A stretch of DNA of 44,064 nucleotides from Reyranella sp. Lineage in GTDB: Bacteria > Pseudomonadota > Alphaproteobacteria > Reyranellales > Reyranellaceae. The stretch is taken from positions 1 through 44,064 of the forward strand of contig JAIETA010000195.1 in assembly GCA_019745575.1 (NCBI GenBank), given 5' to 3'. The translations under genes were made by a program, and so were the position numbers. Position 1 is the stretch's first letter. Each line of letters opens with the position of its first letter. Below are positions 31,113-44,064 of this stretch, in pieces. The notes below the pieces were generated by a model. It did not search any database, was not told the DNA's origin, and saw only the letters and a program-made list of their open reading frames with translations.

Positions 31113-31159
31113 AATGGCGTCCCCGAGAGGATTCGAACCTCCGACCTCCGGTTTAGGAA
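31113..31159. repeat. att site (left), 47-bp direct repeat: residual 3' fragment of tRNA-Arg(CCU)
   Basis: aatggcgtccccgagaggattcgaacctccgacctccggtttaggaa is identical to 43988-44034; downstream sequence is not a tRNA. Confidence 0.95.
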
Positions 31160-31339
31160 GCCTGCCACGATCTATTTCATGCTGCCGCACCGCACAGCGC
31201 GAGGCGCGCTAAATCGCCGCGCCACAAGGCTTCTACGCATCATCATGCTGCACGAGACAGCATCACGCATCGCTCTGGAATATGGCTTTCGAGTGCCAGG
31301 CAAGTGCCCGCAAAGTTTTCGCGTTAACTTGGACGCGAG

Positions 31340-32692
31340 GTGCACATGCAAACAGAGATCACGACTTCCGTCGTCAAAAGCCTTCGACCCGATGGGCAGC
31401 GCTACACCGTCTGGTGCACAGAAGAGAATCCAGCGGGCTTTGGTATTCGCGTTCGTAAGAGCGGTACGAAGACCTATGTCCTGCTTGCACGCACGTTGAG
31501 CGGCGGTCAGTCGCTTGTGACGTTGGGCAGGACAGGAGCGCTATCACTGCCCGACGCTCGGAAGGCCGCCTGGGCAGCCCTGTCAAAAATCCAGAAGGGT
31601 GAGAGCCCCAATGCCGAGAAGAAAGCGCTGTCCAGCCAGACCTTCGGTACGCTGGCAACGCTCTATATGGAGGAACTCAGGACCAAGAGGCAGGGGCATC
31701 AGGTCGAAGGGTATCTGCGCCGCGAATGGCTCGGAGAGGTGCCTAGTCGGAGGCGCATCACGAAGGACGGTCGAACCTTCTGGCAGACGACCTGGACACC
31801 CGGCAAGGACAGGGGTCTGCGGGACAAGCCCGCTCCACTGATCACACGCGAAGATATACTCGCCCGCCTAAACATAGTCCGCGCTACTCGCGGCAAATTT
31901 GCCGCTCGCCATGCTTTGAATTCCGTCCGTCAGGCCCTCAACTGGGCGGCCGAGTTCAACATCTGCGGGGTTAAGACCTCGCCTGCCGCATTCCTCCGAG
32001 ACAAGAGCGTCGGCCTTGCAGGCAAGGACATGCGTAGGCAGCGCGTTCTGAGTGATGACGAGATTAGAGCCGTTTGGCGCGCCGCTAGTGACGCAGGCGT
32101 ATTCGGAGTCCTTGTTAAAGTCCTTTTGCTTTCAGGCCAGCGCCGCGATGACTGGCGGGAGGCTCGCTATTCCGAGCTAGGGCAGGACGGCGACCAGGAG
32201 CTACTGATCGTGCCATCGGCACGCTACAAGACCAACGAGACCCACGAGGTTCCGATTACGCCGCTCATGTCTAAGCTTCTCGGGACGCTCCCTCGCTTCG
32301 TCGGCTCAGACTACATCTTCACACTCGCCGGTCGCCGACCGATCACCACCTCTCGGCACAAAGAGCAACTAGACGAGGCTAGCGGCGTCTCGAGTTACAC
32401 CCTGCACGACCTCCGCCGCACAGCCCGGACGAGGATGGCAGAAATCGGTGTTGATGACGCGGCGGCAGAGCGAGTGCTGGGACACGCACTTTCCGGCGTG
32501 CACAAGACCTATAATGTCTCCAAGCATCGGAAGCAGAAGCGGGCAGCGATCGAGACTTGGGAGGCCGAATTGATGCGCCTTCTACAGCCGCCCGCGACCA
32601 GTGACAACGTCATCTCGCTGCAGCGCTTCGCAGGACCGGCCAAGACCTCGGCGCAGTCGGCCGCTGCGGACCGCTACCGGATGCCCGGCTAG
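31340..32692 (+). CDS. int: tyrosine-type site-specific integrase (GTG 31340 or ATG 31346 start)
   Basis: N-terminal arm-binding domain (GFGIRVRKSGTKTYVL), LLSGQRRDDWREARYSEL, YTLHDLRRTARTRMAEIGV, VLGHALSGVHKTYN. Confidence 0.95.
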   Translation: MHMQTEITTSVVKSLRPDGQRYTVWCTEENPAGFGIRVRKSGTKTYVLLARTLSGGQSLVTLGRTGALSLPDARKAAWAALSKIQKGESPNAEKKALSSQTFGTLATLYMEELRTKRQGHQVEGYLRREWLGEVPSRRRITKDGRTFWQTTWTPGKDRGLRDKPAPLITREDILARLNIVRATRGKFAARHALNSVRQALNWAAEFNICGVKTSPAAFLRDKSVGLAGKDMRRQRVLSDDEIRAVWRAASDAGVFGVLVKVLLLSGQRRDDWREARYSELGQDGDQELLIVPSARYKTNETHEVPITPLMSKLLGTLPRFVGSDYIFTLAGRRPITTSRHKEQLDEASGVSSYTLHDLRRTARTRMAEIGVDDAAAERVLGHALSGVHKTYNVSKHRKQKRAAIETWEAELMRLLQPPATSDNVISLQRFAGPAKTSAQSAAADRYRMPG

Positions 32693-32802
32693 CGCCGGGT
32701 AGCAGGGGTCGGGGCCACCGCGGCCGACCAGCGGGCGTAAGCCAGATCGCGCCGCGCTAACCGGGCCCACAGGGAGCGCTTATCCGATGGGGCGACCAGT
32801 CC

Positions 32803-33444
32803 CTATTTGCCGACTAAAGACGCTTGAGAGTGATTGGCGTAGGTCGGCCAGGTCGGCTCGTACTCTTCGGCCTGATTGCCCCAACAAGACCAGCCTGGGC
32901 GATTGCCGCGCGCAAACATTTCAAGGTACGGACCGTTAGAGCAATCCTCGATAATTTTGTATTGCTCGTCCGGTTTGCGAGAGTGCTCACGCTTCCTCGT
33001 CGCCATGAAGTTCACTTGCCGGCGGCCTGGGGCGTTCGTCCGAACGTTCTTGCCTCTCACGCCGAAGAGAAGAATTTCCGTGACATTCCGGAAGTAGAAG
33101 CCAACGCCGCGTCCGTCAGGCCCGCCGTCCTTCCTAATTTTGTGCCAGATGATGTTTGACTTGTAGCTGAACCCCCACGCGCTCAGCACCTTCAGGCCTT
33201 CGGGCAGTAGAGCGTTCGGCACCCAGAGATACAAGTGAGCGGTGTCAGCAAGGCTCTTCTCGACGGGGAGCGCACAAATCTCATCGAGAGTCATTGTTGA
33301 GTAGCGCTTTAGACGCTTGTGCTCAGGCGCCATCTTCCCCGTGCGATTTAAGAACTGCCACGGCGGGTCAGCCAGCACGGTGCCAAACTTCTTCTTCTTC
33401 GCGAAGCTGAGAAAGTCCTCGGAGGGGGTCATCGGAACCTTCAA
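32803..33444 (-). CDS. MT-A70 family DNA adenine methyltransferase
   Basis: KFGTVLADPPWQFLNRTGKM..HLYLWVPNALLPEGLKVLSAWGFSYKSNIIWHKIRKDG..YFRNVTEILLFGVRG. Confidence 0.93.
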   Translation of the reverse strand: MKVPMTPSEDFLSFAKKKKFGTVLADPPWQFLNRTGKMAPEHKRLKRYSTMTLDEICALPVEKSLADTAHLYLWVPNALLPEGLKVLSAWGFSYKSNIIWHKIRKDGGPDGRGVGFYFRNVTEILLFGVRGKNVRTNAPGRRQVNFMATRKREHSRKPDEQYKIIEDCSNGPYLEMFARGNRPGWSCWGNQAEEYEPTWPTYANHSQASLVGK

Positions 33445-33450
33445 TCCACG

Positions 33451-34110
33451 CTATAGGTCCAACTCGTCGGCGGGCTTCTTCTTGGCCTTCTTAACCTGAG
33501 CCTTCGCCTCTTCAACAGTCATCGTCTCGTCGTACAGCTTCTCACTAATGCCAAAGGCGAGGATGGGACATCCGCCGCCTCCACCGCCTTCGATACGCGG
33601 GAACAACTTGTCCATGTGCGTCGTGGACTGGCCGTAGCTTGAATAGATCCCGAGCTTCTTAAACGTGTTCTCTAGGTGCGAGCTGCGGGTCACAATGATT
33701 CCGACTTCGATGACGCGCAACTCAAAAAGCAGGCGAAAGTTATTTAGGTCGCGGTCGTAGAATGGGTCCTTGTTGTTCCACTCGAGCTCAAGGCCGACAC
33801 CGTTTTTGAAGTTGTCTACCTTGTGCGTTGGGCTCTCCCGAATCGACTCATCTACCTTAATGGAGGTGTGAAACTGGGTTTCCTTCCATCCGCGATTGGC
33901 TAGGTAGCCATCGAACTTCTTCGAGATGGTCGAGCGATTGCCGCCACCAGCAACAATTTCTTGGGTACTGAAACGGAACGCCTTTAGGCATCCCATAACG
34001 TCGTCCCATTCCTTTGGCTTTGCGGTCTTGAGGACGCCGGCAGCGTTGCGCCATTCCCGCACCTCCCAAGTATCTTGGATATCCTTTGGGATGAGGTAGA
34101 GGGTCGCCAT
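33451..34110 (-). CDS. BglII/BstYI-family type II restriction endonuclease
   Basis: VGLELEWNNKDPFYDRDLNNFRLLFELRVIEVGIIVTRSSHLE; immediately upstream of the methyltransferase; MATLYLIPKDIQ start at 34110. Confidence 0.85.
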   Translation of the reverse strand: MATLYLIPKDIQDTWEVREWRNAAGVLKTAKPKEWDDVMGCLKAFRFSTQEIVAGGGNRSTISKKFDGYLANRGWKETQFHTSIKVDESIRESPTHKVDNFKNGVGLELEWNNKDPFYDRDLNNFRLLFELRVIEVGIIVTRSSHLENTFKKLGIYSSYGQSTTHMDKLFPRIEGGGGGGCPILAFGISEKLYDETMTVEEAKAQVKKAKKKPADELDL

Positions 34111-34433
34111 CTTCTTCTCTCGCAAGCTTGGCCCGAGGGGGTCGGCCAAGGATAACGAGATTCCGCCATACGAGTCAGAGCCGGGCGCTGAATCCTGGGG
34201 GCAGATCACCGCCTGCGCGTCCGTGCGCACATGCAATCGTGCATCGTTGGCAAAACTTGCTCGGTCGGCTCCCTTGGAGCGCTCTCCCACAGCGGTACGG
34301 CCTTCACATGAACCGAGATGGCGAACGGTCTGACGAAGCAATCTGGAGAGATTCCCACGGTTTCCACACCCATGTGAACAGATTGGGAACATTCTCCTAG
34401 ACTCCCGCCGCCCGCAATCCGTATTTTCCCTGC

Positions 34434-35372
34434 ATGGTAAGTGACGAAACCCCGCCAGAGCTGTTCCGCGTGCTTGCACTCGATGGAGGCGGCGCAAAGG
34501 GCTTTTACACACTAGGCGTGCTGCATGAGATCGAGGCGATGGCCGGTCCGCTCCATGAGCGGTTCAACCTCGTCTATGGCACCAGCACCGGCGCCATCAT
34601 CGCGGCCCTGATCTGCCTGGGCTACTCGGTCGCGGACATCCGAAAGCTCTATCAAGAGCACGTCGTAAAGGTCATGGCGCGGCTCCTCCCGAGCTCCAAG
34701 AGCGCCGCCCTGGCGGACCTAGCTCGGGACGTGTTCAAAGATGCCGCTTTCACGGATGTGAAAACGGGCATCGGGATCGTCTGCACGAAATGGGGCCAAG
34801 AGCGCCCCATGATCTTCAAGGCGAGCAAGACGCAAGCGTTCGGAAGCAAGTCCTCATTCGTGCCCGGCTTCGGGGTGCCGATTGGCGAGGCGGTGCAGGC
34901 GTCCTGCTCGGCATATCCCTTCTTCAAAAAGAAGACGGTCGTCACGAGCCTAGGCGAGTCCATCGAACTCGGGGATGGCGGCTTCTGTGCCAATAACCCG
35001 GCGCTCTACGCGCTCGCGGACGCGACGGTTTCGATGAAGTTGGCGCACGAGAATGTCCGCCTCGTAAGCATCGGCGTGGGCGAGTACCCCTCGCCCAAGG
35101 CCGGGTTGTTCAGTCTCCGCCGCTGGTTCAACTACATGTTCACCGTGCGTCTTCTCCAGAAGACGCTCGAAATCAACACACAGTCGATGGACCAGCTCCG
35201 CATCGTCCTCTTCAAGGACATCAAGACCGTCCGCATCAGTCAGGCGTACACGCAGCCAGAAATGGCGACGGACATGTTCGAGCACAACACCAAAAAGCTC
35301 GATGAACTGTGGCAGCGCGGCCGGCGCTCCTTCGAGGGCCACGAACCGGCGCTCAAAGAATACCTGCTGTAG
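34434..35372 (+). CDS. capV: CBASS patatin-like phospholipase effector (CapV-like)
   Basis: VLALDGGGAKGFYTLGVLHEIEA (DGGGxxG), YGTSTGAIIA (GxSxG), LGDGGFCANNPAL (DGG); cytosolic, next to a CD-NTase. Confidence 0.92.
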   Translation: MVSDETPPELFRVLALDGGGAKGFYTLGVLHEIEAMAGPLHERFNLVYGTSTGAIIAALICLGYSVADIRKLYQEHVVKVMARLLPSSKSAALADLARDVFKDAAFTDVKTGIGIVCTKWGQERPMIFKASKTQAFGSKSSFVPGFGVPIGEAVQASCSAYPFFKKKTVVTSLGESIELGDGGFCANNPALYALADATVSMKLAHENVRLVSIGVGEYPSPKAGLFSLRRWFNYMFTVRLLQKTLEINTQSMDQLRIVLFKDIKTVRISQAYTQPEMATDMFEHNTKKLDELWQRGRRSFEGHEPALKEYLL

Positions 35373-35381
35373 GAGTACGCC

Positions 35382-36278
35382 GTGCCGATCCCCGAATCAC
35401 AACTCGACACCTGGGCGAAGCAGGGCTCTATTTCGCAATCCGCCGATACCTACGCCACGATCAAGAACGCACTCGAAGCGGCGGGTTCTCCGTACGCCTC
35501 GAAGTCCTACGACGTTTTCCTGCAGGGGTCGTACGGCAACGATACAAACGTATTCAAAGACAGCGACGTAGACGTTGTCATCCAGCTCACGTCCACCTAC
35601 TACTACGATACGAGCCGTCTCGCTGAGGACGAAAAGACTGCTTTCCAAAAGCACTTTGTTCCCGCCAGCTACACGCTCGGTGAGTTCAAAACGGACGTTG
35701 CGAAGCACCTTGAAGCCAAGTTCCCGATGCAAGTGCATCCGAGGAAGAAGGCGATCGACGTAGAAGCCAAAGGCAACAGGCGCAGCTCCGATGTGCTCGT
35801 GGCTACCGACTTCAGGCGCTACTATAAATTCAACACGCCGAACGAATACCAGCGTGCGGATGGCCTGTGCTTCTTACTACCCGACGGCACGCGCATCGAG
35901 AATTTCCCGAGGGTCCACTCCGCGCGGTGCACGGACAAGCACAAGGATACAGCGCAGTGGTTCAAACCTACGGTGCGCATCTTTAAGAATATGCGGAATC
36001 GCATGATCGAGGACAAAGTGCTCGCAGAAGGTGTGGCGCCGTCCTACTACCTGGAGGGAATGCTCTACAACGTGCCGAAGGAGAACTTTGGCAAGTCATA
36101 CCAAGAGAGCTTCATCAAATGCTTCAATTGGATCGCAAACGCCGACAAGACGAAGCTCGTGTGCGCACACGGTCTGGAATGGCTGGTGCGAGACAATAGC
36201 CCGACTTCCTGGGCAACCGCAGACTTCGACACGTACATGAAGAGCGCAGCAAAGTATTGGACGGACTGGTGCGGATAG
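35382..36278 (+). CDS. cdnE: CBASS CD-NTase (cyclic oligonucleotide synthase, CdnE-like)
   Basis: DVFLQGSYGNDTNVFKDSDVDVVIQL (GS..DxD) and SSDVLVATDFRRYYKF third acidic residue; GTG start 9 bp after capV. Confidence 0.92.
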   Translation: MPIPESQLDTWAKQGSISQSADTYATIKNALEAAGSPYASKSYDVFLQGSYGNDTNVFKDSDVDVVIQLTSTYYYDTSRLAEDEKTAFQKHFVPASYTLGEFKTDVAKHLEAKFPMQVHPRKKAIDVEAKGNRRSSDVLVATDFRRYYKFNTPNEYQRADGLCFLLPDGTRIENFPRVHSARCTDKHKDTAQWFKPTVRIFKNMRNRMIEDKVLAEGVAPSYYLEGMLYNVPKENFGKSYQESFIKCFNWIANADKTKLVCAHGLEWLVRDNSPTSWATADFDTYMKSAAKYWTDWCG

Positions 36279-36463
36279 GCAACCAGCTGGCGATAAGTGC
36301 CCTAAACAATCGAACTCCGGTTTTCCAAACCTGGGGCTCTGTCGCCCAATTCCTTTCCTGCGGGAATCAAATTGCGGAGCGTCGCTTGCAGCCTTTGAGT
36401 GGCCTTTGCATTCCTGAAATTTGCCCCTTTACCCGCTCGGAGCTGGAAGGCAAACAGACTTCC

Positions 36464-36793
36464 ATGATTGTAACTCTGCCGACAGGCACCCAGGACATAC
36501 CGGATGACGGTAAGTATCATTTGGAGGTGTGCGATGATGGCAAAGCCTTCTCGTTTCGCATCGTACCGGGGCGACCAGATGACAAACCGGATGACCCAAA
36601 ATTTATCGCGGGTCTCCTGGCCCAAAGCACAGGCAACATGCTGCTGATCACAAATCTATTGGCATCTGAGATACAGAACGTCGTCGATCATCCGCGGGAC
36701 TTCGGCGTCAACCTACGATGCCGGGTTTGGAGCGCCAAGATGGTGAGCGAAGGCCTGCGCCTTGCGATGCTCACCAAAGATGAGGAAGCGTAG
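36464..36793 (+). CDS. hypothetical protein (109 aa) downstream of CBASS
   Basis: ORF with internal start MIVTLPTGTQDIPDDGKYHLEVCDDGKAFSFRIVPGRPD...; no family recognised. Confidence 0.6.
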   Translation: MIVTLPTGTQDIPDDGKYHLEVCDDGKAFSFRIVPGRPDDKPDDPKFIAGLLAQSTGNMLLITNLLASEIQNVVDHPRDFGVNLRCRVWSAKMVSEGLRLAMLTKDEEA

Positions 36794-36839
36794 CCGCTCG
36801 CACGACCAAGAGACCGCATCTGTCGCTGAGAGGGAATCC

Positions 36840-37484
36840 ATGGGAGCGGACTCACATAGATGCACTGATCTACACAAGCTCTTACAGCACAAGCCGCGCT
36901 ACCGATTCCCACCTCCATTTGTACAGCTTCCATTGAACGGCTTGTACTTCATCTTCGACAATGGTCAGTCTGTTCACGAGGGTTTTGACCGGATCGCACG
37001 TATTGGAAGCCACACTGGGCGTAACAATTTGGTACCCCGACTATGGCAGCACATCACGCCCCATGGCCGGAGCAGCTTTCGGTGGGATATAGGAGCGGCA
37101 GTAATCCGAGCCAGAACAAAAGGCTTTGAACTTCCCTCGATGGATGTATGGAACGAGTGCGATTCAATATCGCGGAAGACGGCAATCGAAGACGAGCGAG
37201 TAGGCACTCTAGATAGATTTGAGACGCAATTGTCTGCATATATTGCCAATAGGTTCGTCTTCAGCGTCATTGGGACCCGCGATCAGAGCGAGGCGCTCGA
37301 ACTGGAGAAAGCCTGTATCGCCACGGTCGCGCAGTGCCCCCTGTGTAAGGAGATCACGACTACCGAACTTCAGCCTAAGAAGGGGTTTCTCTGGAACGCG
37401 ATGCATACTGGCCCTCGAAGCCCACGTCTTAACGATCAACAATTGAGTCTTCTGAGAGCGCGGGCTGGTATCGGCGCACGCTAG
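36840..37484 (+). CDS. divergent GIY-YIG-like nuclease-fold protein
   Basis: LPLNGLYFIFDNGQSVHEGFDRIARIGSHTGRNNLVPRLWQHI follows the GIY-(x)n-(Y/R)IG pattern; longer starts at 36762 or 36780 possible. Confidence 0.65.
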   Translation: MGADSHRCTDLHKLLQHKPRYRFPPPFVQLPLNGLYFIFDNGQSVHEGFDRIARIGSHTGRNNLVPRLWQHITPHGRSSFRWDIGAAVIRARTKGFELPSMDVWNECDSISRKTAIEDERVGTLDRFETQLSAYIANRFVFSVIGTRDQSEALELEKACIATVAQCPLCKEITTTELQPKKGFLWNAMHTGPRSPRLNDQQLSLLRARAGIGAR

Positions 37485-37683
37485 TGCGTAAATGGGCTTT
37501 CCGGGGGCATCCATGACAAGACGCGCTTACAGTGGGTGCTCCCGTCGAGAGTTGCGGAGCCTGCTCGCACACGGCTAGTCCGCGATACCCTAGTCGCCTA
37601 GAATTTTCGTGCGTGCGTATCGGATGGTTTTTGATCCCTGTACCGTTCGCTCGACCGTCTGCCTCGGAGGACTGCAATGCCGT

Positions 37684-37926
37684 CTAACTGGTGGTGCGCG
37701 GACGGCCTGCTGACGGTTGCGGGCGACGCAGAAGGTCTGCAGCTTCTACTCTCAGCACACGCGCTAGACGGTCCACGACGTCTATACCGGCCGCATATTT
37801 GGACCTCTCAAGGGCGCTCACGTAGGTACGGTCGATCTCCGCTCGGTGGGCAAGCTCCTCCTGTGACAGTCCCGCAGACCGCCTACATCGTCTCAAGTTG
37901 AGTGCCAGCACCTCTCGAATCTCCAT
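37684..37926 (-). CDS. XRE-family HTH transcriptional regulator (80 aa)
   Basis: NLRRCRRSAGLSQEELAHRAEIDRTYVSALERSKYAAGIDVVDRLARVLRVEAADLL. Confidence 0.92.
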   Translation of the reverse strand: MEIREVLALNLRRCRRSAGLSQEELAHRAEIDRTYVSALERSKYAAGIDVVDRLARVLRVEAADLLRRPQPSAGRPRTTS

Positions 37927-38129
37927 GCCTAGAAGAGCACGGCCTTGTCGAGTATTCTGCCACGGAGTATTCTCTACAATCAGTGGCTAGAAGATTCTGT
38001 CTCGCCGATTGCCTTTGGGAGTTTCGAGATAAGTGACCACCGGCCGAAAGCGATATTCGCTGCCGTCGCCTTGTAAGCTGCCACGAAAATTCGGCAACTA
38101 GGCCGGAGCGGATATTCGCGATTCACTCG

Positions 38130-38558
38130 ATGAAAGCCCAACCAATTGACCTTGGTCTTCTCATCAGCCGCGGCTTCACGCAGGTGGCGACGTGGCACCG
38201 TGACTCTGCGAACCGCGTGTCGTTTCTCGGCCATTTCCCCTCTTCCCCAGGCCTCTATCTATTCGTCGAAGGCGAAGTCATCCGGTACGTCGGCTCAGCA
38301 TCGGATGGCTTGCACAGGCGTATGCGCAACTATCAGCGTCGGCAGAACGCGAGAAACTCACTTCGGCCGGTTCATACCAGCCTGGCCGATGCCCTCGGGG
38401 GTGGCGCGTCCATTGCGGTCTTCGTCAAGGTCGTCGCCGACTCCGAGCAGTGTGAATGGAATGGATTACCCGTCGATATCTTGCTTGGAGTCGAAGCTGC
38501 CATAATCAAGAAGATCAACCCATTATGGAACCGGCGTGGACGCCCGCCACTACTCTAG
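38130..38558 (+). CDS. GIY-YIG nuclease family protein
   Basis: FPSSPGLYLFVEGEVIRYVGSASDGLHRRMRNYQRR..GVEAAIIKKINPLWNRRGRP. Confidence 0.8.
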   Translation: MKAQPIDLGLLISRGFTQVATWHRDSANRVSFLGHFPSSPGLYLFVEGEVIRYVGSASDGLHRRMRNYQRRQNARNSLRPVHTSLADALGGGASIAVFVKVVADSEQCEWNGLPVDILLGVEAAIIKKINPLWNRRGRPPLL

Positions 38559-38625
38559 GAACGAGGACTCAGCGTCACTCGGGTACTGCAGCGTAGGGTG
38601 GTGGCGCGATCACAGTGTCCGTTCA

Positions 38626-39120
38626 TCACGAATCAACGGCGAAGTCGATGTCAGAAAGTGCGAGCGTAGTAACCTCTAGGCTGCGTCCTGGTAGCCCTTC
38701 AGTCTCAAGTCCCGGACTTGCCGAGCCGATGACCACCATCAATTCCTCGTCGCTAAAATCTTCAACGCTCCGCTTTTCGATCTGAGCATTGATCCGAGTT
38801 TCCGGTCGGCCCCATGCGCGATCGAGGAGGGCGTTGGTAGCGGCAAGTTGCACCGCTGCGGGAACTTCGGGATCGTCGCGAAGTTCGACCAACTTCTGCA
38901 AACACGCTCTCGTCTCGGCGCGGGCGAGAGTCCGCAACTCGGCAGGTAAGGCCGGGCGGCCCGCCGGATAGGGCGATGCCGTCCCTGGCAGGAACCGGCC
39001 GTGGCCATCGCGTATCACATCTTGCACGACAACCTCCGTGATAGGTCGCTTAAACTTGCACTCATGTGGAGGGGCAATGAAAGGAGTTACTCGCGAGTTC
39101 GACAAGATGACTGGGGGCAC
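38626..39120 (-). CDS. DUF5681-like / small-terminase-like protein (start uncertain)
   Basis: RDGHGRFLPGTASPYPAGRPALPAELRTLARAETRACLQKLVEL..AATNALLDRAWGRPE resembles phage-associated GRFxxGxxxNPxGRP proteins. Confidence 0.6.
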   Translation of the reverse strand: MPPVILSNSRVTPFIAPPHECKFKRPITEVVVQDVIRDGHGRFLPGTASPYPAGRPALPAELRTLARAETRACLQKLVELRDDPEVPAAVQLAATNALLDRAWGRPETRINAQIEKRSVEDFSDEELMVVIGSASPGLETEGLPGRSLEVTTLALSDIDFAVDS

Positions 39121-39159
39121 TCACAAGTGAATGCATAGTTTCCATCGCGCGCGCCTTGC

Positions 39160-39531
39160 GTCCCGCACGAAAGGCCTCTGCGGGGCTGCGGGACGGGTCG
39201 CAAAGCGTGCACCGGCGGACGACGGCCACCCCGCATGCAAGCTTTGCGGGACAACGTCATCGGCCACCAAACACGCCCCCAGCAGCCCCTAAAATAGACG
39301 TCAGTCTATCGGGAGCATGAGGGGGCATTGTTTCGTCGCCTGGGTCCCGGGATACCGCGATAGGGACAAGGAGACCGCTCCTGATGTCGGGCGCTCTCGG
39401 GCGCTCTACGCGCACTGGCGAACGCTTCGTCGTGCGGTTCCGGTTTTTCTGCGCCCCGCCGGTATTGGGTGGGCTGGGACAGCCGGTATGGGGGTCGTGC
39501 GCCCCACCACCCCCGAAGGGGGTGGGGTGGG
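39160..39531. other. noncoding repeat/hairpin/G-rich region, candidate replication origin
   Basis: TGCGGGAC octamers at 39160(-),39187(+),39245(+); atagac-gtca-gtctat 39294-39309; tandem tcgggcgctc 39387-39406; G-runs 39467-39531. Confidence 0.4.
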
Positions 39532-39616
39532 TGCCCGTACCCTGAGCGTCAGAGTTTTGGGTCCGCCCCGGCTCCGGCCTTAAGGGCGCTAAAACAGGGC
39601 GCGCTGGGAATTACGT

Positions 39617-41617
39617 CTAATTGAATCTCACTTCGTGACCCCCGACCGCAAACGGGAAGCGCTCGAAGAATAGGCAGTCGCCCTCTATCCGATGCTTGAA
39701 CTTGCTCTTCAGAAGTTCCTTCATCGTCAACTCGCGCCTGTTCGAGATATTTAGCGGCCTCAGGACGTCGTCCCGGAAACTCTTCTTCAAATAACCAGTG
39801 GGGGGCGCGCCCTTCTTGATTCCAAACACCACGCCACCGTTAGCCAACATCCAGCGCAGACGCCACACGGCCTGATCGCCATCTCTGCGCTCGTTTGCTT
39901 TGTCCTTAGCGTCTTTCTCCTGAGCCTTATCCTCTCTGGACATGAACGCGAAATGTCGCGGCACTTGGTAATGTTGTTCGGCTTCACCATCGTCCGTCAT
40001 GCATGTCTCGCTGGTCCGCTCGGTCGTGATTCTCAAGATTGGATTCGGAACACCAACGCGAGTTTTTCCCACCGTTAGATAGTAGGTATCTCTATCATGT
40101 GTGTCGGCAGTGGCTGTGATCGTGCCGTCACTATCACCGGTGGCCGCGCCTGCGCCGCTTATCGTCTGGAGGCCGTCCTTGCCCCAGCTTGCCTTTACGG
40201 AGTGACCAACAACGATCATCGGACACGGGCTGGAGCGCTGACGGAGCAGAGCGATGGCCTTGCTCATCTCCGAATTATCCTTTTCGTCGTCGGTCTTTAG
40301 GTTGGTCCGGAAGGTATCCAGTACGCCCAGCGGAAGGATGTCGTAGGGCTGCCCCGTAAGGGAGGACGTTGCTTGCGTAGTGAACGCAACAGTTAGCTCG
40401 TTCAGTCGAGCGGAAATCTCTACCGCGCTAAGCTGTAGGGCATCGGTCAAGTGGAACATGCTGCCCAGCTCATCTGGTCTAGCTATATCCCCGAAGAGAT
40501 TCATCCCGCGCAAGATGTTCTCCACGCGGTCCGCGTTCTCCGAAATCACGAAAACCTTGCGCGGCGGTAGACGCCAAATAATGTCGGATGGCGGTGCGCG
40601 AAGGCCGGCCACCATGCACAGCAAGGACGTTAAGAGGGAGGTCTTGCCGACCCCCGGTTCCCCCACCAAAAACGTCAAACCCTGGCCTATAAAGGCCGGG
40701 AAGACATACTTGTCTGGCTTCGGCCTAATAACGTCGATCTTGCGCCAAACGTAGGGCTGTGAGGGTTCCTTCTGCTCACGCGCACTCGCCGGGTTAACCC
40801 AGCCGAAATCGTTCGCGGCCCAAACCAAGATGGACTTCCAGTGGGCATGCGCTTTGCCCGCAGCATGTTCCCATTTCTTGCGAACTTCATCGGCATTGAA
40901 CTTGTCTGACCAGCGGCTCCATTGCTCAAACAGGACGAAGCCGTCTTCAACGCTCTGAAGTGCGAGTGCAACCCGATACCAAACGTCGTAGTCATCGGCA
41001 TCCAGCGCCGCGAGGGCGTCACGCAGGTCCGCACGCTGCCTGCTGGACAACTTTTCCACGGAATGTCCTGTGGGGAGCCCGGCGGGCATCGGCTCGGTCT
41101 TCTCAAGTTCCGGGTAGACAGTCATAAGATCAACGATTGGGCCGTCTAAGATTTGATCTCCAGTGAACGTGAAGAACCGGCCATGGGAATAAAACTCCCT
41201 GCCATCTTTCTTGCGCGCTTTGAAATCCCGCCCAAGGCCGAGGACGTGGTAGCCGGTCCCACTCGGGCTCTTCTCAACGTAGCCGGGAGCTGTATCGGCT
41301 CCTTCTAAGGAGCCGTCGCGGTCGTGGCCCTGCCAGTATTCGCCGAGCGTGTCGTCATACCCTAGGGCGAAGCCGAGGCCCCAGTCGCCGCTCCGGTCGC
41401 CAAGAGCGGCCTTTGCCTCCGTAAACGAGACGAGCTGTTCAAGGTCTTCGCGCGTATCAGTGATCTGGCGCCTTTGGCCGTTTACATAGTGCGGCACCTT
41501 GCGCGGCTTCTTGCCGTCCTGGTGCTGAATGATTTGGTAGAGGAGCCAGCGCCGCGCTGCCTTCATGCGCTCTAGCGTAGAAGAGTAAGGCTCAGACTTT
41601 AGGTTAAACTTGACCAT
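39617..41617 (-). CDS. primase-polymerase/RepA-like helicase fusion (666 aa)
   Basis: N-terminal PrimPol-like (KPRKVPHYVNGQRR..WGLGFALG..YVEKSPSGTGYHVLG..GRFFTFTG), middle PriCT-like (ALDADDYDVWYRVALALQS), C-terminal Walker A VGEPGVGKTSLLTSLLCMVAG. Confidence 0.88.
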   Translation of the reverse strand: MVKFNLKSEPYSSTLERMKAARRWLLYQIIQHQDGKKPRKVPHYVNGQRRQITDTREDLEQLVSFTEAKAALGDRSGDWGLGFALGYDDTLGEYWQGHDRDGSLEGADTAPGYVEKSPSGTGYHVLGLGRDFKARKKDGREFYSHGRFFTFTGDQILDGPIVDLMTVYPELEKTEPMPAGLPTGHSVEKLSSRQRADLRDALAALDADDYDVWYRVALALQSVEDGFVLFEQWSRWSDKFNADEVRKKWEHAAGKAHAHWKSILVWAANDFGWVNPASAREQKEPSQPYVWRKIDVIRPKPDKYVFPAFIGQGLTFLVGEPGVGKTSLLTSLLCMVAGLRAPPSDIIWRLPPRKVFVISENADRVENILRGMNLFGDIARPDELGSMFHLTDALQLSAVEISARLNELTVAFTTQATSSLTGQPYDILPLGVLDTFRTNLKTDDEKDNSEMSKAIALLRQRSSPCPMIVVGHSVKASWGKDGLQTISGAGAATGDSDGTITATADTHDRDTYYLTVGKTRVGVPNPILRITTERTSETCMTDDGEAEQHYQVPRHFAFMSREDKAQEKDAKDKANERRDGDQAVWRLRWMLANGGVVFGIKKGAPPTGYLKKSFRDDVLRPLNISNRRELTMKELLKSKFKHRIEGDCLFFERFPFAVGGHEVRFN

Positions 41618-42053
41618 CTCGACCTTCAGCGACTGCTTGAATCTGAAGGCTCCGATCAAAGAAGGAGGGAAGAGGGTTCTCATCGGGAACCGCTGTCCCA
41701 TTTTCCGCGGTCGCGACTGGCTGCGGTTTTTGGGACAGCCGATGCGCCGTCGATTTGGACACCCCTTCGGCAGCCGCAGTGTCGCGGATCGACTCACCCG
41801 CCGCGAGTCGGGCTGCAACACGGTCACGCATGCCCAACTCTGCCAGATACTCCGCCAAACGCGTCTCTTGCGCCTCGCGCTCAGCCGGGTCCATCGCGCG
41901 AATGGCGATGACTTTCTTCAAGGTCGGGATATTACGGCCCTCGGCTTTGGCCGCCTTGTAAGTGTCCTTGACGCGAACGCCGATAGCTTGGCGTTCCGCT
42001 TCAAGGTCCTCGATGGCCTTGACGATGACGGGAAGGTTGCTGGTCGTCATCAT
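41604..42053 (-). CDS. GapR-like (DUF2312) domain fused to HTH
   Basis: VKAIEDLEAERQAIGVRVKDTYKAAKAEGRNIPTLKKVIAIRAMDPAEREAQETRLAEYLAELGM (DUF2312/GapR) then AGESIRDTAAAEGVSKSTAHRLSQ (HTH). Confidence 0.85.
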   Translation of the reverse strand: MMTTSNLPVIVKAIEDLEAERQAIGVRVKDTYKAAKAEGRNIPTLKKVIAIRAMDPAEREAQETRLAEYLAELGMRDRVAARLAAGESIRDTAAAEGVSKSTAHRLSQKPQPVATAENGTAVPDENPLPSFFDRSLQIQAVAEGRDGQV

Positions 42054-42271
42054 GCCACCCTGCGCTTGGTCGCGCGCGCACGCGGCCCAGCGACGGGCAA
42101 CTCCGCAATCCACGCCTCAATCTCGCTCGCGACGAAAGCGATGTGATGCCGCCCCAAGCGCCGCGGCATCGGAAATAGATTTTGTCGGGCTAGACGCCGA
42201 ACGGTGTCACGCGAGAGCGTGATGCCCATAGACGCAAGCTGTTCGTATCTGACTAGAATAGGCATAGACAT
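42050..42271 (-). CDS. AlpA/excisionase-like HTH regulator
   Basis: MSMPILVRYEQLASMGITLSRDTVRRLARQNLFPMPRRLGRHHIAFVASEIEAWIAE. Confidence 0.85.
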   Translation of the reverse strand: MSMPILVRYEQLASMGITLSRDTVRRLARQNLFPMPRRLGRHHIAFVASEIEAWIAELPVAGPRARATKRRVA

Positions 42272-42595
42272 AGCTTCGCTCCTCGCGGAAACACCAGAGC
42301 GCGTCCGCATTGGTTAGTGTGAGCGCCAGCTATGAGGCGATAGTCGGCCAGTTATAGGCCTCGGCCCGATCACTGATCAGCCTGAAACTCGAAGCGCAGC
42401 GTTGTTAGCCGGTTCGGTTGTGAACGTAAGATAAATTAGCGGCGCGCGCTGAGTCAAGAGCGAGTACCTTCACCGCACTTCGCGCAGTCTAACTTCGAGC
42501 ACCAACTCAGTTATTGCAGATGACGCCATGGTAGATTGAGTTGAAACCGGTCTACGCTAATCGAGCGAGCGACGGCCAAGAACTGGGAGAACACG

Positions 42596-43027
42596 ATGAG
42601 CAAATCCGCTCTTGTTGGGAAAGCGGGAGAGATGCTCGTGGCGGCTGAACTCATGCGAAGAGGCATCTATGTCGCACATCCCGCGTACGATGGTGGCATC
42701 GACCTGCTGGCCTTCCGGGAGGAAGCGCCCTCTCACGTAGTGCCGATACAAGTCAAGGCGCGCGCCGGCTCTTGTTACAATTTTCAGAAGGCTTGGTTCA
42801 GCAAGGCACCTGGCATTGTGCTGGTGCAAGTATGGAATCTGGCAACTGAGCCGGCTTGCTATGTCTTCGGATCGCTAGATGACGTCTCTCAGGCTCTTGG
42901 CGATCACGGAAGTTCCCCTAGTTGGCGAGATAAGGGCGGTTATAGTGTTACCAATCCAACTCCCGTTCACTTGGAGCGAATGGCGCTTCATCGCGAAAAA
43001 TGGGACCGGATAATCAGTCGCCTGTGA
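42596..43027 (+). CDS. PD-(D/E)XK-like endonuclease-fold protein
   Basis: ALVGKAGEMLVAAELMRRGIYVAHPAYDGGIDLLAFREEAPSHVVPIQVKARAG: E..GID..QVK pattern. Confidence 0.75.
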   Translation: MSKSALVGKAGEMLVAAELMRRGIYVAHPAYDGGIDLLAFREEAPSHVVPIQVKARAGSCYNFQKAWFSKAPGIVLVQVWNLATEPACYVFGSLDDVSQALGDHGSSPSWRDKGGYSVTNPTPVHLERMALHREKWDRIISRL

Positions 43028-43229
43028 GTGCGAGACGTCCATAGTGGCAGAACATCGTGCTGCGCATAGAACACTTGATAGGGACGATACCCAAGACCGC
43101 TAACTGCAGTTTCCGCCGCTCGGTCGGTTCGCTGCCCGTTCAATGGCCCGCAGGTACCGTTGCAGGCGCCGCTCGGCCTTGGCTTCGGAACCGCGCGCCC
43201 CAACCCAGTGGGCCGCTGGAGCGCTCGCA

Positions 43230-43475
43230 CTAGTTCGTCCTGCATTCAACGCGGTCGCCAACGCGCCAACACCGCGTCTCCTTGGGTAGGCGATAGCCGG
43301 GACTCTGCGGATTGCCATCTTGCCCAATCAGCGGCCGCGGTGGCTCTTGAGTTCGGCACCGAAGTTCCTTGCCGACGTGCCAGCAGTCAGTCCGTTCCTG
43401 GGCGCTTGCATCTATGGCCACGACTGAGATTGCCGTGGCCATGATGATCGCGAGTCCGAGGATGGAATGGTTCAT
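43230..43475 (-). CDS. small secreted protein with duplicated CWxVGxxxxCRT motif
   Basis: Signal peptide MNHSILGLAIIMATAISVVAIDASAQ; CWHVGKELRCRT and CWRVGDRVECRT. Confidence 0.65.
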   Translation of the reverse strand: MNHSILGLAIIMATAISVVAIDASAQERTDCWHVGKELRCRTQEPPRPLIGQDGNPQSPGYRLPKETRCWRVGDRVECRTN

Positions 43476-43798
43476 GCAGCCTTCTCTTCGGCAATCTTGG
43501 CACGAAGGCCGTCCAGCGTCTCCAAGACGACTTCCCGCCTCATGCCCAAAGCAAACGCTTGAGCAATGCGCCGCTGGATGCGGCGGGCGAGCTTGGCCTC
43601 GGGAGTGGACGCGTCTCGCTTGACGCGGGGCTTCTCCGCCGGCCTTGGCCCTGCGGCCTCCACAGGGGCCTCGGGCGTGGCGTCCGCGATGACCTTTGGA
43701 GCGATATCTACGACGACCATCGGGATGTCCTTCAGGACCAGCGTCTCGGCGGATTTCTTGGCGACGGGCTTCTTGGTAACGGGCGTCTTGGCAGGCAT
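43472..43798 (-). CDS. hypothetical protein, Lys/Pro/Ala-rich N-terminus and basic helical C-terminus
   Basis: MPAKTPVTKKPVAKKSAETLVLKDIP...EAKLARRIQRRIAQAFALGMRREVVLETLDGLRAKI; 4-bp overlap with the downstream gene. Confidence 0.6.
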   Translation of the reverse strand: MPAKTPVTKKPVAKKSAETLVLKDIPMVVVDIAPKVIADATPEAPVEAAGPRPAEKPRVKRDASTPEAKLARRIQRRIAQAFALGMRREVVLETLDGLRAKIAEEKAA

Positions 43799-43987
43799 CG
43801 GATTCTCCTGTTTTTGCTATCCGGTTGTCTCAGCTCAACCGTGCGGCAACCCTGCGGGTAGCTTCCCAAGTCCGAAAGACATTTTCCTGCGGGCATCACG
43901 CATCACCATGCAACGACATGCATCACAAGATGCGAAAATTCGGGGCCAAGTGCCCCGTGAGTGCTGGGGCCGAGGCATCTTTGTAAA

Positions 43988-44034
43988 ATGGCGTCCCCGA
44001 GAGGATTCGAACCTCCGACCTCCGGTTTAGGAAA
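43988..44034. repeat. att site (right), 47-bp direct repeat within tRNA-Arg 3' half
   Basis: Identical to 31113-31159; flanking bases differ on both sides. Confidence 0.95.
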
Positions 44035-44064
44035 CCGCTGCTCTATCCGGCTGAGCTACGGGGA
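43990..44064 (-). tRNA. tRNA-Arg(CCU), missing about one 5' nucleotide at the window edge
   Basis: Reverse complement tccccgtagctcagccggatagagcagcggtTTCCTAAaccggaggtcggaggttcgaatcctctcggggacgCCA; cloverleaf arms and encoded CCA. Confidence 0.93.

Follow-up and report, generated by a model that had tools for sequence, protein, structure and literature searches.

A 44,064-nucleotide contig of the alphaproteobacterium Reyranella sp. (JAIETA010000195.1, analyzed at full length and here called the window) ends in a compact island that is quite probably an integrated, phage-dependent satellite of the kind known as phage-inducible chromosomal islands (PICIs), equipped with its own small terminase subunit (TerS). 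We consider this reading the most likely one because islands that carry a gene of the DUF5681 family, the putative TerS, and no gene for a large terminase subunit (TerL) recur in other genomes as complete elements with the same plan, one of them also in a tRNA-Arg(CCT) gene. The island is apparently a variant of phage satellite that is undescribed in the literature searched (subscription papers and satellite catalogs lay outside the search).

Boundaries and core genes of the island

The island is bounded by a direct repeat (31113-31162 and 43987-44036) in which 49 of 50 positions are identical and the first 47 bp match exactly. The right attachment (att) copy (43987..44033) lies within the attachment gene itself, which encodes tRNA-Arg(CCT) (43989-44065, minus strand) and whose sequence stops at the contig end (44064). 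The left att copy (31113..31159) is an exact 47-bp copy of the 3' half of this gene. An earlier reading of the window made from the sequence alone (the sequence-only reading) had reported exact 47-bp repeats in tRNA-Arg, which we recovered, and a circle of 12,875 bp, for which we measured 12,874 bp; this spacing between the repeat copies gives the length of the island and falls within the PICI size range. The G+C fraction is 0.583 within the island versus 0.682 in the left flank.

A tyrosine integrase gene (31340..32692, plus strand) adjoins the left att copy and is transcribed inward; it matches the Pfam families Arm-DNA-bind_3 (2.9e-12) and Phage_integrase (1.8e-10), as well as an integrase family in PHROGs. 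Three minus-strand genes, each overlapping by a few bases, encode an AlpA-type excisionase or regulator (42050..42271, in an open reading frame [ORF] from 42310; PF05930, 7.3e-8, above cutoff), a GapR domain fused to a helix-turn-helix (HTH) (41604..42053; PF10073, 1.1e-13; HTH_23, 5e-4), and a primase-helicase with a primase N-terminus, PriCT_2, and AAA_25 in Pfam (39617..41617). The ORF of the last gene extends to 41827, and its start is likely the ATG at 41617. Because this excision and replication set is intact and the att repeats are present, the island is predicted to be mobile.

Scans of the island's main ORFs against Pfam, PHROGs, NCBIfam, and PADLOC revealed no TerL, capsid, tail, relaxase, or conjugation gene. 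The sequence-only reading had described a compact defense-carrying element with an integrase, a tight minus-strand operon of AlpA, GapR-HTH, and primase-helicase genes, and no capsid, tail, or conjugation genes. The repeats, the gene set, and the defense block agree with this description, as do the family matches, the few-base overlaps, and the outcome of the scans.

The DUF5681 gene as a putative small terminase subunit

The DUF5681-type gene (38626..39120, minus strand; start uncertain, perhaps 39027) was assigned to TerS from its synteny, profile, and fold. In Acetobacter phage phiAX1, the DUF5681 homolog overlaps the start of the TerL gene, and portal and coat genes follow. A family scan of IMG/VR returned 80 loci, and in 70 of the 72 where DUF5681 was automatically re-identified, TerL follows on the same strand within 3.5 kb, mostly overlapping or adjacent to DUF5681; the remaining two have TerL elsewhere. 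When IMG/VR was scanned again with island-type query sequences, DUF5681 was found just upstream of TerL in 71 of 77 loci, although the two scans overlap in part and are thus not fully independent.

Structural comparisons point to the same family of proteins. A DUF5681 profile built from 68 sequences was compared with all PDB chains (177,635 sequences), and its best match is the small terminase of PaP3 (E = 0.0036), with the small terminase of NV1 lower in the list (E = 0.14). Helices 60-82 and 88-103 are well predicted in an AlphaFold model of the DUF5681 protein, and a fold search with this model placed PaP3 and NV1 small terminases at ranks 1 to 9 (probability 0.82-0.99) and the E217 TerS at rank 16. 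Position, sequence, and fold therefore agree in suggesting that the gene encodes a small terminase subunit, with a similarity that is remote. Small terminase subunits in general act as ring oligomers that bind pac/cos DNA and activate TerL. The synteny with TerL in viral contigs, the profile match, and the fold matches also lend support to the label "TerS-like" that the gene had been given earlier; this label, the weakest claim of the sequence-only reading, turned out to be its strongest.

The island protein falls below the Pfam threshold for DUF5681, and its six aligned homologs all pass. A DUF5681 tree (108 columns) is poorly resolved: phage forms and island forms tend to group by type (13 changes versus 26.6 in shuffles) without splitting into two clean clades. 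Within the literature searched, DUF5681 is mentioned once, in a Salmonella phage study in which mass spectrometry of the phage detected such a protein, and no link between DUF5681 and small terminases was found. Two further IMG/VR contigs (L299 and L304) carry a weak integrase fragment, an HTH gene, a transglycosylase-domain protein, a 790-amino-acid protein, and DUF5681, with no TerL found; they possibly represent another satellite type.

Related islands and competing explanations

To find relatives in cellular genomes, we scanned GTDB (one genome per species) with a DUF5681 family query and obtained 80 loci, 79 of which were classified. TerL lies downstream in 22 of these, which are phages or prophages; another 22 have an integrase and no TerL; and 35 have neither, several of them being cut by contig ends. 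Five of the integrase-bearing loci lacking TerL are complete islands of 6.4-11.8 kb with exact tRNA att repeats of 45-85 bp, located at tRNA-Met, tRNA-Thr (twice), tRNA-Arg(CCT), and tRNA-Arg(CCG). Their integrase adjoins the repeat copy outside the tRNA gene, as in the Reyranella island. AlpA/HTH and primase or RepA-type helicase genes are present where recognizable, and TerS is located between these and the tRNA.

Among the ORFs of the complete islands, 38 match integrase, primase/helicase, AlpA/HTH, and cargo families, and no TerL, structural, or relaxase family appears among their Pfam matches or among the 25 of 43 PHROGs matches listed. Thus, these tRNA islands with integrase, replication genes, and DUF5681 carry neither conjugation genes nor full sets of phage genes, whose constant presence in homologous islands would, according to the sequence-only reading, have marked a decayed element. 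The same reading had called the family alphaproteobacterial, which proved too narrow because DUF5681 loci lacking TerL also occur in contigs labeled Betaproteobacteria, Methylobacter, and Candidatus Obscuribacterales. Furthermore, DUF5681 lies less than 600 bp from a tRNA gene in 14 of 57 cases lacking TerL versus 0 of 22 cases linked to TerL (Fisher p = 0.008), and this proximity also exceeds local tRNA density (p about 4e-5).

The replication genes are less widely shared. A search of 76 genomes from the order and 385 from the class, together with pattern scans of GTDB contigs and IMG/VR, found no homolog of the island primase; phage matches span only its N-terminal or ATPase part. In relatives, the matches to GapR-HTH (about one per genome) fall mostly on the GapR domain and look like chromosomal GapR. 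Because this GapR-HTH and primase core is without a close relative in the samples searched, the family is defined by its architecture and TerS rather than by a common primase. One Obscuribacterales contig does carry a primase with the same PriCT_2 and AAA_25 domain pair, adjoining a DUF5681 gene.

Several other loci were noted during these searches. Near-identical DUF5681 genes directly follow tRNA-Ser/Gly/Pro at five loci (L138, L139, L140, L142, and L157) with no integrase in the fetched contig; these may be remnants or belong to an element of another kind. At L231 (G058:C13, 1615-11477), a stretch of about 9.9 kb that includes a DUF5681 gene is flanked by a 38-bp tRNA-Ser repeat, and no integrase was found. 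Islands in three genomes that share only an integrase with ours (G069, G020, and G002) were set aside as analogous rather than homologous, and a DUF5681-looking gene in G069 has no Pfam match. The G069 island (L015 and L024, G069:C13) is from the same genus; its integrase is 43% identical, its primase is of the VapE/RepB type, and its defense-like block is very large.

By analogy with described satellites, phage infection or induction would turn on the AlpA operon, and AlpA and the integrase would then excise a 12.9-kb circle via the tRNA-Arg att sites. AlpA-triggered excision and induction have been demonstrated for phage-inducible chromosomal minimalist islands (PICMIs) (PMC10803314). The GapR-HTH protein and the primase-helicase would replicate the excised circle, and the DUF5681 TerS would bind the element at a packaging site and recruit the TerL of the infecting phage, so that satellite DNA enters phage heads. 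TerS-directed packaging by the infecting phage is known from PICIs with terS (PMC6092414), and terminase genes are taken to indicate mobilization by phages in a review of mobilizable elements (PMC11389934). A candidate origin or packaging site might be the 496-bp non-coding gap between the primase-helicase and DUF5681 genes (39121..39616), which contains short direct and inverted repeats. An external helper fits this scheme because the draft host genome has no match to the TerL family PF03237 and because phage loci of the DUF5681/TerL type are present elsewhere in the order, including one in the genus-mate G024 (L236). A PF18932 search of the host genome gave no match anywhere, with the controls likewise lacking a match, and is therefore uninformative.

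Other explanations were weighed against a PICI-like satellite. TerS and the primase are of phage type and DUF5681 is common in complete phages, as expected if a prophage had lost its structural genes and retained the integrase, primase, and TerS by chance. However, five complete islands with exact att repeats, from distant hosts, have the same reduced set, and in the Reyranella island the core ORFs are open and tightly overlapping. Because independent decay would not repeatedly keep these three genes yet drop TerL, we consider a decayed prophage quite unlikely. It is also unlikely that the island is a defense-carrying integrative element moved by conjugation (as an integrative mobilizable element), natural transformation, or generalized transduction, with DUF5681 serving another role such as DNA binding or replication. 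Defense cargo is common on such islands, and the 35 genomic DUF5681 loci with neither TerL nor integrase within the fetched contig are in keeping with this explanation, but no relaxase or conjugation family was found in the island, and DUF5681 accompanies TerL in almost all viral loci and matches small-terminase structures.

A different possibility is that TerS acts mainly in interference, poisoning or diverting the packaging of an infecting phage rather than serving island transfer. Its location between the defense block and the replication operon would suit this role, and satellites often both exploit and inhibit their helpers. Nevertheless, mobility is implied by the att repeats together with the intact genes for excision and replication, and the two roles are compatible, so we judge it very unlikely that interference is the main function.

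Some observations weigh against the satellite reading. The right chromosomal flank is outside the sequence because the contig ends inside the tRNA gene, which is a weak point, and a search for the empty site in relatives via the carbonic anhydrase and tRNA genes found no common flank. The GapR-HTH and primase core lacks close relatives in the samples searched, and TerS is located beside the replication operon here versus on the tRNA side of, and antiparallel to, the integrase and replication block in the complete islands. The TerS identity rests on synteny and remote similarity; the island protein is divergent, sharing no more than about 40% identity with any relative, and the fold-match E-values (0.36-1.8) are not significant alone, such that the ranking is the evidence. 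On a Roseomonas contig (L174, 2014-3445), genes for an integrase and a Terminase_2 small terminase stand beside a DUF5681 gene, and hence DUF5681 may in some cases not be the only TerS and two TerS-type genes could coexist. Finally, the excision, helper, induction, and particle of the proposed satellite are predictions from sequence.

Known satellites, defense cargo, and implications

Gram-negative PICIs comprise an integrase, a replication module, and an AlpA-type regulator, lack structural and lytic genes, span 12-15 kb, and sometimes carry terS (PMC6092414). The kind is further defined by a conserved organization of its core genes, by att sites that prophages never occupy, and by induction, interference, and packaging that depend on a phage. 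The Reyranella island resembles them in its gene set, its lack of structural genes, and its size. It differs in its gene order, with the integrase gene near one end of the integrated element and AlpA near the other, in that TerS belongs to the DUF5681 family, and in that GapR-HTH lies between AlpA and the primase. In Vibrionaceae, PICMIs neighbor fis, encode DUF3987/DUF5906 primases, and lack terS in their core (PMC10803314). The island shares with them a minimal core of int, alpA, and primase in which single genes separate alpA from prim, and in two of the related complete islands (L137 and L200), a gene with no Pfam family overlaps the integrase gene by 4 nt, similar to the "iolg" of PICMIs. 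However, its tRNA-Arg site, PriCT_2/AAA_25 primase, and TerS separate it from the PICMI group.

P4-like satellites also combine an integrase, AlpA, a primase-helicase, a tRNA site, and defense cargo, and the sequence-only reading had drawn this parallel. It does not apply, since Pfam and PHROGs scans of the main ORFs found no Psu, Sid, Delta, or P4-type primase, and the island has a TerS. We also rejected a capsid-forming PICI, as the scans detected no capsid or head genes of the island's own, and an integrative mobilizable or conjugative element, as no relaxase or type IV secretion genes were found.

The defense block lies between the DUF5681 gene and the integrase. It includes an MT-A70-type type II DNA methyltransferase (32803..33444, minus strand; Pfam MT-A70, 1.7e-30; PADLOC MTase_II, 9e-91) and a BglII-like restriction endonuclease (33451..34512, minus strand; Pfam Endonuc-BglII, 2e-46, residues 156-322) whose true start is probably downstream of the ORF start. 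These are followed by a phospholipase effector (34434..35372, plus strand) and an oligonucleotide cyclase (CD-NTase; 35382..36278, plus strand) of the DS-2 or cyclic oligonucleotide-based antiphage signaling system (CBASS) type. Both exceed the cutoffs of the DS-2 equivalogs in NCBIfam (DS2_1_antiphage, 4.7e-142, and DS2_2_antiphage, 1.8e-130) and are labeled Effector and Cyclase by PADLOC, and the best PDB match of the effector is a cUMP-AMP-activated phospholipase (6e-118). The third gene of DS-2 as described encodes a diadenylate cyclase (PMC13092281), for which the island has no recognizable counterpart, and the pair therefore departs from the three-gene system.

The block continues with a small gene that has no family match and an inferred start codon (36464..36793, plus strand), a PDC-M57B-like defense candidate (36762..37484, plus strand; PADLOC PDC-M57B, 5e-32), and an XRE-type regulator (37684..37926, minus strand; HTH_3, 3.4e-13; PADLOC Control_protein) that is probably the control protein of the restriction-modification set. 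A small endonuclease-like gene (38130..38558, plus strand; phrog_1111 endonuclease, 1.9e-7) appears to be of the GIY-YIG type by inspection. Elsewhere in the island, a promoter-like sequence upstream of AlpA (42428..42457, minus strand) matches the consensus at chance frequency, and a small gene (42596..43027, plus strand) is a weak candidate for a YraN-like nuclease fold (NCBIfam YraN, 0.0028, far under cutoff). The restriction-modification set and the DS-2/CBASS pair could serve to defend the host or to keep out competing phages.

Enterobacterales, Vibrionaceae, and Gram-positive cocci account for most of the phage satellites known. We lean, if only slightly, toward the view that the islands described here form a broad, unrecognized group of 6-13-kb phage satellites that occupy tRNA genes in Alphaproteobacteria and in other bacteria, with an integrase, AlpA/HTH, a primase-helicase, a DUF5681 TerS, and no TerL. 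The Reyranella island would then be a defense-laden branch with a GapR-HTH replication protein. Searching for DUF5681 beside a tRNA gene and an integrase, without TerL, would yield candidate satellites in groups from which the literature searched apparently describes none. DUF5681, until now a domain of unknown function, would gain a testable role, and a defense island would be linked to its probable vehicle of transfer.

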